DNA of 64,000 nucleotides from Halorussus rarus (GTDB lineage: Archaea; Halobacteriota; Halobacteria; Halobacteriales; Haladaptataceae). The notes below the pieces were generated by a model. It saw nothing but the letters and a program-made list of their open reading frames with translations. It had not been told where the DNA came from and ran no database searches. Positions 7,131 through 34,568 of the stretch are shown here, piece by piece (the stretch's first letter is position 1; the number at the start of each line of letters is the position of its first letter). The DNA is taken from positions 124,001 to 188,000 of the forward strand of contig NZ_QPMJ01000003.1 of NCBI RefSeq assembly GCF_003369835.1. The letters run 5' to 3'. The translations under genes were made by a program, and so were the position numbers.

Positions 7131-7176
7131 GGCTGTGGGTACTTGCCGGGCTACCTAAACCTTTACGTACCGACCC

Positions 7177-7312
7177 AACGTTTTACCGCGGTCACGCCCC
7201 GAGCGGCGCTCCCTCGTAAAACGTTGATTAAAAGCCGTCGTCACCCCCTCATTCGCGCCTCCGGCGCTCGGTCGAGGGTTCCTCGGCCCGCTCGCTCACC
7301 GCGTTCGCTCGC
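7177..7312 (-). repeat. hairpin-forming intergenic repeat, copy 1
   Basis: On the minus strand this copy begins with the box gcgagcgaacgcggtgagcg, then has a spacer and a perfect 10-bp inverted repeat, aacgttttac/gtaaaacgtt, around a G+C-rich core. It shares its box order with copies at 8399-8538 and 33658-33760. It lies 25 bp downstream of the 59-residue gene, in the same orientation as that gene. It may act as a terminator or RNA-stabilising structure, or be a non-autonomous mobile repeat. Confidence 0.7.
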
Positions 7313-7336
7313 CGTGAAACCGGTTGCAGACCCCCG

Positions 7337-8325: not shown

Positions 8326-8398
8326 ATCCGGGGTTGGTCGGCGGCGGTGAAAAGCGTAGGTGGACGCGGTGGCGGTGCGGTCTCCGTAGTTCTACTGC

Positions 8399-8538
8399 CA
8401 GCGAACGAACGTGAGCGAGCAGGCCAAGCGACGACCGGAGTGAAACGGAGGGAGGAGCGCAGGCTTTTCATCAACGTTTTGCCAGTGAGGGAGGCCGAGA
8501 GCAACTTGCTCTCGGCCGACCGAGCGCAGCAAAAGGTT
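8399..8538 (+). repeat. hairpin-forming intergenic repeat, copy 2
   Basis: The copy starts with cagcgaacgaacgtgagcga, continues with a spacer and aacgttttgc, then a strong central hairpin (ggccgagagcaa / ttgctctcggcc, one-base loop, 8493-8517), and ends gcaaaaggtt. The outer arms pair nine of ten positions. Compared with the other copies, the TTTTAC/GTAAAA stem is TTTTGC/GCAAAA here, a compensatory change. It abuts the stop codon of atpD in the opposite orientation. Confidence 0.75.
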
Positions 8539-8539
8539 G

Positions 8540-9238
8540 TTAGTCGTCCGCGGCGACGGTCTCGGCTTCCTCGGCGGCCTCGGCCTGGGCGGCCTCGCGC
8601 TCCTCTTTCTCCTCCTCCTCCTTCTTGGCCTTGATCTTCTTGAGGCGGAAGATCTCCTCGCGCTCCTGCTCCTCGAGCTTCTGCTCGATGTACTCCTGGT
8701 TCTCCTTGAGCTCGGGCAGCAGCTTGAACTCCAGCGCGTTCACGCGGCGCTTGGTGGTCTCGATTTCGGTCAGCATCTTCTTCATCGCGGTCTCGACCTC
8801 CGCGGCGAGGATGATGCTCTCGAGCAGTTCCTCGTAGGCCTCGGCGGCCTCGTCGATGCGGGCGCTGGTGCCGAGCACGCCGTACCCGCGCTCGTCGAGG
8901 CCCTTCTTGACCTTGCTGGACTCGATCTGGGGCACGACGACGCCCATGATGTTCTTCGATTCGGTGGTGATCTCGGGGTGCTCCTCGAGGGCGGCCGCCG
9001 CCCCGCGGACCGCCACGTCGCCCTCCATCGCCCGGGCCATGTTTATCTTCTGCTGGGCGACCTCGTAGTTGTCCTCCAGCCCCGCCCGCACGTCCTGGGC
9101 CTGGTCGAGGATGTCCATGAACTCCATGATGAGGCCGTCGCGCTTCTGCTCCAGCGTGTCGTGGCCCCGCTCGGACAGCTCGATGCGGTCCTCGATCTGC
9201 ATCAAGTTCTTCCGGGTGGGCTTGACGTCGTTGGCCAT
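8540..9238 (-). CDS. atpD: A-type ATP synthase subunit D
   Basis: Subunit D is the central rotor stalk that links A3B3 catalysis to the c-ring. The 232-residue protein starts [20 protein letters not shown] and is a long two-stranded coiled coil with the family pattern LKQKRDGL-like ([12 protein letters not shown]) and [16 protein letters not shown]. The C-terminus is a highly charged Lys/Glu tail. It is the last gene of the operon, separated from atpB by 248 bp. On the minus strand a TATA-like gtaaaaggttaacc lies about 35 bp before the ATG, so it may also have its own promoter. Confidence 0.95.
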
Positions 9239-32658: not shown

Positions 32659-33651
32659 ATGATCTCGAAGGGCTGCGAACAGTGCGCCAAGGGGGGCAAG
32701 ATGGTGCTCTTCGTCTACGGCTACTGCGACCAGCGGGACTGCTTCTACTGTCCCCTCGGCGAGAACCGCAAGAACGTCACCGACGTCTACGCCAACGAGC
32801 GGAAGGTCGAGTCCGACGAGGACGTCGTCGCCGAGGCCGAGCGCATGGACGCGCTGGGCACCTCCATCACCGGCGGGGAGCCCCAGGAGGCGATGGAAAA
32901 GACCTGTCGGTACCTCTCGCTGCTCAAGGAGGAGTTCGGCGAGGACCACCACACGCACCTCTACACCGGCATCACGGGCGGCCGCGAGAACATGCGCCGG
33001 CTCTCGGAGGCCGGCCTCGACGAGATCCGGTTCCACCCGCCGCTGGACCTCTGGGGCGAGATGCACGGCACCGAGTGGGAGGACATCCTCTACGTCGCCC
33101 GCGAGGAGGGGCTGACCCCCGCGTTCGAGATTCCGGGCATCCGGGCCGAGGAGGAGTTCCTCGAGTTCTTGGACGAGGGCGCCGCGGAGTTCTGCAACGT
33201 CAACGAGTTCGAGATGAGCGACGGCAACTTCCGCCGGATGCAGGAGGAGGGCTACGAGCTCCAGGACGGTCACATGAGCGCGGTCGAGGGGTCGAAGGAG
33301 ATCCTCGACCAGATGGGCGACCACGACCGGGTGTACTTCTGCACCTCCGTGTTCAAGGACGCCGCCCAGCACCGCAACCGGATGAAGCGCATGGCCCGGA
33401 ACATCCGTCGGGAGTTCGACGAGGTGACCGACGACGGGACGCTGGTGTACGGCAAGACGTGGGAGACGAGACAGCGCCTCGAGGAGCTCGGCGTGCCCGA
33501 GGAGTTCTACACCGTCAAGTCCGACCACGTCGAGCTGGCGTGGTGGCTGCTCGAGGAGATGGTCCAGGAGGGCGACGTCGAGAAGGGCGAGATCGTCGAG
33601 CAGTACCCCACCGTCGACGGCCAGGTGGTCGAGCGGACGCCGCTGGCCTGA
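32659..33651 (+). CDS. radical SAM protein with CX4CX2C cluster motif
   Basis: A 330-residue radical SAM protein (MISKGCEQCAKGGKMVLFVY). The cluster motif reads YCDQRDCFYCPLGE, that is C-x4-C-x2-C and not the common C-x3-C-x2-C. An extra pair GCEQC lies at the N-terminus. Other family segments are TSITGGEPQEAMEK and HTHLYTGITGG. Archaeal members are annotated only as radical SAM or PFL-activase-like. Substrate is unknown. A 32-bp copy of its 3' end recurs 115 bp past the stop. Confidence 0.85.
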   Translation: MISKGCEQCAKGGKMVLFVYGYCDQRDCFYCPLGENRKNVTDVYANERKVESDEDVVAEAERMDALGTSITGGEPQEAMEKTCRYLSLLKEEFGEDHHTHLYTGITGGRENMRRLSEAGLDEIRFHPPLDLWGEMHGTEWEDILYVAREEGLTPAFEIPGIRAEEEFLEFLDEGAAEFCNVNEFEMSDGNFRRMQEEGYELQDGHMSAVEGSKEILDQMGDHDRVYFCTSVFKDAAQHRNRMKRMARNIRREFDEVTDDGTLVYGKTWETRQRLEELGVPEEFYTVKSDHVELAWWLLEEMVQEGDVEKGEIVEQYPTVDGQVVERTPLA

Positions 33652-33652: not shown

Positions 33653-33657
33653 TCGCT

Positions 33658-33760
33658 GCGAGCGAACGCAGTGAGCGAGCAGGATTTTGGTCCAGCTTTT
33701 ACCAGCGAGGGAGCTACGGGCGGCCGAAGGCCGCGCGAGCGACCGAGCGCAGTAAAAGGT
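33658..33760 (+). repeat. hairpin-forming intergenic repeat, copy 3
   Basis: It has the box gcgagcgaacgcagtgagcg, then agcttttac, a small central hairpin (gcggcc-gaa-ggccgc, 33720-33734) and the 3' box gaccgagcgcagtaaaaggt. The outer arms agcttttac/gtaaaaggt pair eight of nine positions. It begins 6 bp after the radical SAM stop codon, in the same orientation. Confidence 0.75.
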
Positions 33761-33767
33761 GGTCGCG

Positions 33768-33799
33768 CCAGGTCGTCGAACGGACGCCGCTGGCGTGAG
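33768..33799 (+). repeat. direct repeat, right copy (duplicated gene tail)
   Basis: This is a non-coding near-copy of the last 32 bp of the radical SAM gene, including the stop. With the left copy it flanks hairpin repeat copy 3, as expected if an insertion duplicated its target or if the gene tail was duplicated. Confidence 0.75.
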
Positions 33800-33827: not shown

Positions 33828-34568
33828 TCACTCTGGTGTCGTGGCGGCATCCTCGTCCTCGGATTCCGCGGTCGTCTCGGTGGTCGTTTCAGTTGCGGTC
33901 TCGGTTGTGGTTTCAGTTGTCGTTTCGGTAGTCGTTGCGGTGGTCGTTTCAGTCGTGGTCTCGGTCGTCGTTGCGGTGGTCGTCGTCTCCGCGGTCGTCT
34001 CCGTAGTCGTGGGTGTTCGTTCGGTCGTCGTCTCGGTCTCGGTCGTGGTTCCGGTGGTCCCCGATTCGGTCCCCTTGGTGGTCGTCTCGGTCGTCGTCGG
34101 TCCATCCGGCGCGGTCTCGTCGGTCGACGTCGACTTCCGGGACCCGGTCCCGGCCGTCCCGGAGCCGTCGTCCCCAGCGGGCGTCTCGTCCCCGCACGAG
34201 CCGTCCTCGAACAGCCGGACCTGGAAGTTCCCGCAGAAGCTGCGCTTGCCGGTCGGGCGGAAGCGATAGGCCTCGCCGACGGACGGCGAGGGCGAGTCGG
34301 AGCTCACGAGCAGGTAGAACTTCGTGCCGCTGCACGTCCGGCATCTGAACAGATTGCCGTCGTTGCACAGGCTCGACCCGACGTACTCGAACAGTTTGAC
34401 GGTGCCGTCCTCCTCGGCGATCATCTCCTCGGACCCTCTGGTCACCCAGCCCGTAATTACGGAACGCGAACCGGTGGTCGTCCCCGGTACCAGGTCTGTT
34501 CCCAGAACCCCGGCCAGCAGCGCGCCCCCGGCGCTGAGGAATCCCCGGCGCGATGTCTCGTCCGTCAT
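33828..34568 (-). CDS. Tat-exported protein with cysteine-rich head and Thr/Glu repeat stalk
   Basis: The 246-residue protein starts MTDETSRRGFLSAGGALLAG, a twin-arginine signal. The head (about residues 35-130) holds Cys residues in SSLCNDGNLFRCRTCSGTKF, RSFCGNF and DGSCGDE, a set fitting disulfides or metal binding. The C-terminal third is a low-complexity run of TTTETTTE-type repeats, like a mucin-like glycosylated stalk, ending EDEDAATTPE. No membrane anchor follows, so it may be released. The chosen start is the first ATG giving an N-terminal Tat signal. Confidence 0.75.
   Translation of the reverse strand: MTDETSRRGFLSAGGALLAGVLGTDLVPGTTTGSRSVITGWVTRGSEEMIAEEDGTVKLFEYVGSSLCNDGNLFRCRTCSGTKFYLLVSSDSPSPSVGEAYRFRPTGKRSFCGNFQVRLFEDGSCGDETPAGDDGSGTAGTGSRKSTSTDETAPDGPTTTETTTKGTESGTTGTTTETETTTERTPTTTETTAETTTTATTTETTTETTTATTTETTTETTTETATETTTETTAESEDEDAATTPE
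33850..34035 (-). repeat. low-complexity Thr/Glu codon repeat
   Basis: Degenerate hexamer-to-nonamer units encoding TTE and TTTE are repeated many times within the secreted-protein gene. Such tracts tend to change length by slippage. Confidence 0.7.

Follow-up and report, generated by a model that had tools for sequence, protein, structure and literature searches.

Three copies of a hairpin repeat in Halorussus rarus

A 64,000-nucleotide stretch of the Halorussus rarus genome (the window) contains three copies of an intergenic repeat, each with a 5' box and a hairpin whose 3' foot we call the R end (Table 1). They lie where a sequence-only reading of the window had placed them, with offsets of only 1–3 bases. 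The R end of copy 2 abuts a minus-strand gene that we take to be archaeal ATPase subunit D-like, and copy 3 is located between the 3' end of a radical-SAM-like gene and a remnant copy of that same 3' end; the names of genes neighboring the repeats, such as radical-SAM-like and citrate synthase, are our putative assignments from sequence. In copy 1, the box is ~24 nt past a stop codon and the R end lies ~45 nt upstream of the ATG of the following minus-strand gene and points toward that gene's promoter. Thus, the earlier claim that all three copies lie next to a gene's 3' end holds as close contact for copies 2 and 3, but not for the promoter-facing copy 1. Just downstream of copy 3 (33840–34100), 12-bp low-complexity direct repeats (GTCGTTTCGGTG-like) were seen within a predicted minus-strand gene.

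Table 1. Features of the hairpin repeat and abutting genes in the window
Feature	Position	Strand	Remarks
Copy 1, 5' box (GGCGAGCGAACGCGGTGAGCGAGC)	7290..7313	-	from sequence and pattern search
Copy 1, R-end hairpin	7176..7226	-	arms (minus strand) CAACGTTTTAC at 7216-7226 / GTAAAACGTTG at 7176-7186
Copy 2, 5' box (CTGCCAGCGAACGAACGTGAGCGAGCAG)	8396..8422	+	from sequence
Copy 2, unpaired T-run ahead of hairpin	8465..8468	+	
Copy 2, R-end hairpin	8472..8539	+	arms CAACGTTTTGC at 8472-8482 / GCAAAAGGTTG at 8529-8539
Presumed ATPase subunit D-like gene	8540..9238	-	stop codon TAA directly abutted by copy 2 R end
Copy 3, 5' box (CTGCGAGCGAACGCAGTGAGCGAGCAG)	33656..33682	+	4 nt past stop codon
Copy 3, unpaired T-run ahead of hairpin	33685..33688	+	
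Copy 3, R-end hairpin	33692..33762	+	arms CCAGCTTTTAC at 33692-33702 / GTAAAAGGTGG at 33752-33762
Radical-SAM-like gene 3' end, original of duplicated stretch	33620..33651	+	
Remnant copy of radical-SAM-like gene 3' end, past copy 3 R end	33767..33798	+	

Architecture and folding

On the plus strand of the element, the order is 5' box (consensus CYGCGAGCGAACGnAGTGAGCGAGCRG), a variable spacer with small hairpins of its own, a run of 4–5 unpaired T, the hairpin, and the R end. The lower stem reads NNASTTTTnC/GnAAAAGGTNN, the upper stem is GC-rich and highly variable, and the R end (AAAAGGTnG) is located immediately past the stem. Against dinucleotide shuffles, the hairpins of copies 1, 2, and 3 folded with z values of about −2.0, −6.1, and −5.4, respectively. 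The double change from A-U to G-C in the copy 2 stem, from which a compensatory change had been proposed, is real; the outer stem bases (NN) also covary (C-G, G-C, A-U, and more), and so does nearly every stem pair. Among 112 matches to a covariance model, two-sided changes occurred in 303 cells versus 104.5 in shuffles and 20–68 with the partner slid, and in a second set of 76, most of which came from different genera or families, in 263 versus 83 shuffled; alignments fitted to a covariance model lean toward structure, and the shuffles, the slid controls, and the other-genera set agree. The covariance-model check suggested for a wider set of copies returned many copies with strong covariation, which supports conserved folding.

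Two types of non-canonical pairs recur in the stem. One is a G-G opposition at one of two adjacent positions. The other, found in ~45 of 106 and 48 of 76 sequences, is a tandem G-A/A-G whose place is otherwise taken by two Watson–Crick pairs. These regular mismatches oppose purines on the plus strand; read on the minus strand, they would oppose pyrimidines. Because of them, and because G-U is commoner than A-C (45 versus 17 cells, p = 5e-4, the cells not being independent), the folding strand is probably the plus strand. The covariation, the tandem G-A pairs, and the excess of G-U would all suit selection for folding of a structured RNA that is read from the plus strand, either autonomous or in a 3' UTR. 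However, G-U makes up just 28 of 1823 and 17 of 1224 standard-pair cells in the two sets, which is very low for an RNA family, the plus strand is antisense to the gene that the hairpin abuts at its stop codon, and copies 1 and 2 had no Rfam match in scans at E up to 1; we consider such an RNA decidedly improbable. An RNA hairpin read from the mRNA of the abutting gene was rejected, as neither the mismatches nor the G-U bias fit that strand. Similarly, the mRNA 3' stabilizer suggested earlier is a poor fit, since the fold is kept on the antisense strand of the touched gene.

Distribution of the family

A BLAST search with copy 2 and a pattern search with the box revealed many further copies in this genome. 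Ten copies served to build a covariance model (R1) of the hairpin half, and copies were picked by their score against it; copy counts vary with the E-value chosen, and the H. rarus genome (G000; 4.37 Mb, seven contigs) gave 39 matches at E ≤ 10 and 28 at E ≤ 0.01. Matches were found in 43 of the 59 Halobacteriales genomes searched, with carriers comprising all 18 genomes of the genus (G000 included), all 10 others of the family, and members of several other families, which bears out the earlier suggestion of a multi-copy, MITE-like family. Mean hairpin identity was 0.71 within a genome and 0.68 between genomes. A 40-nt exact pattern run over a collection of genome contigs matched solely loci of Halobellus and Halostagnicola, and a plasmid search gave one weak match, in Natronorubrum. 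A phage origin was rejected, as there was no phage match. The sequence-only reading knew of no named family. Besides the Rfam result, we found no named family or description matching the repeat in the open-access papers searched.

GCGAGCG and GAGCGAAGCGAG motifs are common in haloarchaeal genomes, so the family could be suspected of being a chance similarity of GC-rich intergenic sequence. We give this practically no credence, since covariance-model E-values reach 1e-17 per genome, the box pattern had 32 matches versus 9 for a reversed control, and the covariation far exceeds the shuffled and slid controls. The reversed control and both covariation sets likewise refute low complexity.

Position relative to genes

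Genes were called with a purpose-written codon-usage caller around 99 copies, mostly of the genus, and 75 copies from other genera. In the genus-dominated set, the R end was at a stop codon in 55 of 71 cases (stop −2 to +4 nt from the stem end), and in the other-genera set it was within −2 to +5 nt of one in 46 of 57. Where the stem ends in GAACC, the stop codon (TAG or TGA) overlaps the stem; where it ends in CRACC, the stop is usually 0–4 nt away and often TAA, a codon that is enriched at R-end stops (23/55 versus 161/790, p = 6e-4). Five tRNA genes have their 3' end 0–4 nt from an R end. Of 27 R ends whose right-hand neighbor is oriented away from them, 12 lie 34–42 nt before the start codon, which we infer to be where the promoter BRE/TATA would begin. 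The left end is scattered, with only 2 of 36 within 10 nt of a stop, and compaction or deletion acting equally on both ends was rejected on this ground. For ~40 of the 99 copies, neither neighboring gene has the folded strand as its sense strand.

Inverted pairs 300–500 nt apart, with R ends outward and boxes face-to-face, were observed at eight loci (L121, L122, L134, L142, L156, L157, L175, and L179), and one inverted pair occupies the same locus in several species. At another locus (L053, ~1501–1519), just after a tRNA-like sequence on the opposite strand comes a box-like GCGAACGAAGTGAGCGAAG, past which are repeats of a tRNA-end-like sequence (CACCACGGGAC).

Orthologous sites and gene-tail duplications

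At the loci compared, orthologous sites are mostly empty. The element next to the ATPase D-like gene is present in only two of 30 genomes (G000 and G009), the remaining 28 having unrelated sequence after the stop; this stop is TAA in both carriers and mostly TGA in the rest of the genus. Element positions are sometimes common to species (58 orthologous pairs), so many copies were inherited or exchanged rather than freshly inserted.

The 3' end of the adjacent gene is repeated past the R end in ~10 copies, the duplicated stretch being 25–78 bp. Copy 3 is among them, and its remnant differs from the gene end at three positions, all third-position and synonymous. At this radical-SAM-like gene, the box lies 4–8 nt past the stop in several genomes of different genera, and a second, partial gene 3' end follows the R end in G000, G002, G011, G023, and G033. 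Duplicated tails were also found at citrate synthase (G000, G008, and G014), at uridine phosphorylase (G000, G005, and G015), and at other genes (G002, G009, G010, G014, G016, G020, and G033). Between gene ends and their copies, 28 of 44 differences were third-position (p = 4e-5, only a guide because the loci are related). For citrate synthase, the junction is identical in three species, yet the copy tracks each host's own gene (G008 and G014 compared), suggesting that exchange or gene conversion keeps the gene end and its copy alike. The citrate synthase locus of G008 (L249, ~2630–2960) has gene tail and element in a partial tandem repeat, whose second element is decayed and lacks the R end. 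A simple direct target duplication in stop-facing copies was rejected, with one weak tRNA case among the stop- and tRNA-facing copies.

Comparison with haloarchaeal terminators

The principal termination motif of Haloferax volcanii consists of a T-stretch and a following C; T5C gave 95% termination and one hairpin 59% (PMC7237163). The hairpin repeat resembles these terminators in having T5/T4 runs at gene ends, a T-run at a gene end being a feature of intrinsic terminators, but theirs are simple T-runs without this conserved hairpin family. The element might be a functional terminator or insulator kept at gene 3' ends and spreading by recombination between gene ends; its T5 and T4 runs would stop transcription from the box side, and CCTTTTGC that from the gene side. 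A T-run of 4–5 is present in nearly all 99 copies (T5 in 56), and most copies are at gene 3' ends, with some at tRNA 3' ends; the plus-strand T-runs and this location make the terminator reading plausible. However, the T-run lies ahead of the hairpin and not behind it, exact contact with a stop codon is not needed for that role, most orthologous genes do without the element, and many copies have a folded strand that is sense to neither neighbor. The terminator reading also leaves the strand-specific mismatches, the promoter-abutting copies, and the gene-end duplications unexplained, and as a full account of the element we regard it as possible but rather unlikely. A recombining element and a terminator may both hold.

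Comparison with known mobile repeats

Like the REP/BIME elements associated with RAYT in bacteria (PMC2817692), the repeat is a short intergenic palindrome in dozens of copies, often in inverted pairs, with a hairpin in one strand and compensatory stem changes. The strand-specific hairpin with its conserved mismatches, the precise end at the hairpin foot, the intergenic dispersal, and the frequent inverted pairs would match a REP/BIME- or PATE-like element if an IS200/IS605-type Y1 (HUH) transposase recognized the single-stranded hairpin and moved it; PATEs are also known from haloarchaea (PMC3119063). However, no Y1_Tnp (PF01797) match was obtained in seven genomes with 13–51 copies each (G000, G001, G002, G003, G009, G010, and G011), while positive controls matched; the domain was present in 9 of 19 genomes searched, and the richest carrier of the repeat, G009, has no Y1 transposase. 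Unlike bacterial REPs, the repeat has a T-run ahead of the hairpin and no GTAG/GTGG head, fixes one end to stop codons or tRNA ends, and shows gene-tail duplications, whereas IS605-type elements make no target duplication. We thus view the Y1-mobilized element as improbable, and a Y1 transposase as the driver was rejected because it is absent from G000.

A report on Haloquadratum walsbyi describes PATEs, MITEs, SMRs, and puzzling deletion-coupled insertions, the PATEs having near-terminal palindromes and the SMRs a mode of mobilization given as unknown (PMC3119063). PATEs and SMRs are, like our repeat, haloarchaeal, non-coding, and without a transposase gene, but their descriptions there set the hairpin repeat apart: SMRs are >95% identical with terminal inverted repeats, while copies of the hairpin repeat are ~70% alike, and PATEs are IS605-derived and make no duplication, while a minority of our copies have the 25–78 bp gene-tail duplications. 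The deletion-coupled insertions are similar in that unrelated sequence replaces an ancestral intergenic stretch at exact positions, as also occurs at the ATPase D-like locus; no repeat or hairpin is named as their cause in the part of the report that describes them (PMC3119063). A MITE would be expected to have a target duplication of fixed length, whereas here it is 25–78 bp and absent from most copies, and to share terminal inverted repeats with an autonomous transposon, and no such partner or autonomous relative was found among the Y1 transposases searched. The hairpin repeat shares features with REPs, PATEs, SMRs, and MITEs but departs from each in one or more defining traits.

A proposed mechanism

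The dispersed copies, the plus-strand covariation with purine–purine mismatches, the empty sites, the precise R end, and the gene-tail junctions lead us to favor, with not quite even confidence, an order-wide haloarchaeal REP/MITE-like non-coding repeat that recombines or moves and has one precise active end, the R end. The plus strand would fold as single-stranded DNA (or RNA), and the hairpin foot would be a recurrent break or template-switch point, at which the DNA is broken or copied and then rejoined. Rejoining downstream would remove spacer DNA, with a stop codon, a tRNA end, or a promoter setting the limit; rejoining upstream would duplicate the gene tail. Only joins that leave the adjacent gene undamaged would persist, so that the R end would come to rest against functional boundaries or a copied gene tail. 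Between strains, copies may spread via ordinary homologous recombination in flanking genes. The T-run and hairpin would stop transcription arriving from the box side, and the element thus probably acts as an incidental terminator. Against the mobile reading, element positions are sometimes common to species, stop-facing copies showed no target duplication, the gene-tail duplications could be ordinary tandem duplications, and the fixed position of the R end could reflect selection for function and not a joining reaction. With considerable doubt, we suggest that the repeat may represent a new prokaryotic class that recombines via one hairpin foot without Y1, either targets gene 3' boundaries (stop codons and tRNA ends) or is driven onto them, and copies the gene tail so that the gene survives.

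If the mobile reading is true, a widespread repeat, attached with base precision to stop codons and tRNA ends, shapes gene ends in haloarchaea, and this would explain part of the sharp intergenic replacements between strains known as deletion-coupled insertions. The repeat would also give access to the recombination or transposition activity that acts on it and be a source of candidate native terminators. Being simple, the R-end rule can readily be checked against the genome of any haloarchaeon or against 3'-end RNA data.

A second interspersed family

A second interspersed family was noted at the centers of six loci (L044, L047, L048, L049, L051, and L054), which have a GCGAACGnAGTGAGCGAG box in common. 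After the box, the sequence continues GCGCAGGAGGCTGGGGAGGCGTGAGG..., beside a different GC-rich palindrome (GGCGCGCGCTGGCGCGGCC).
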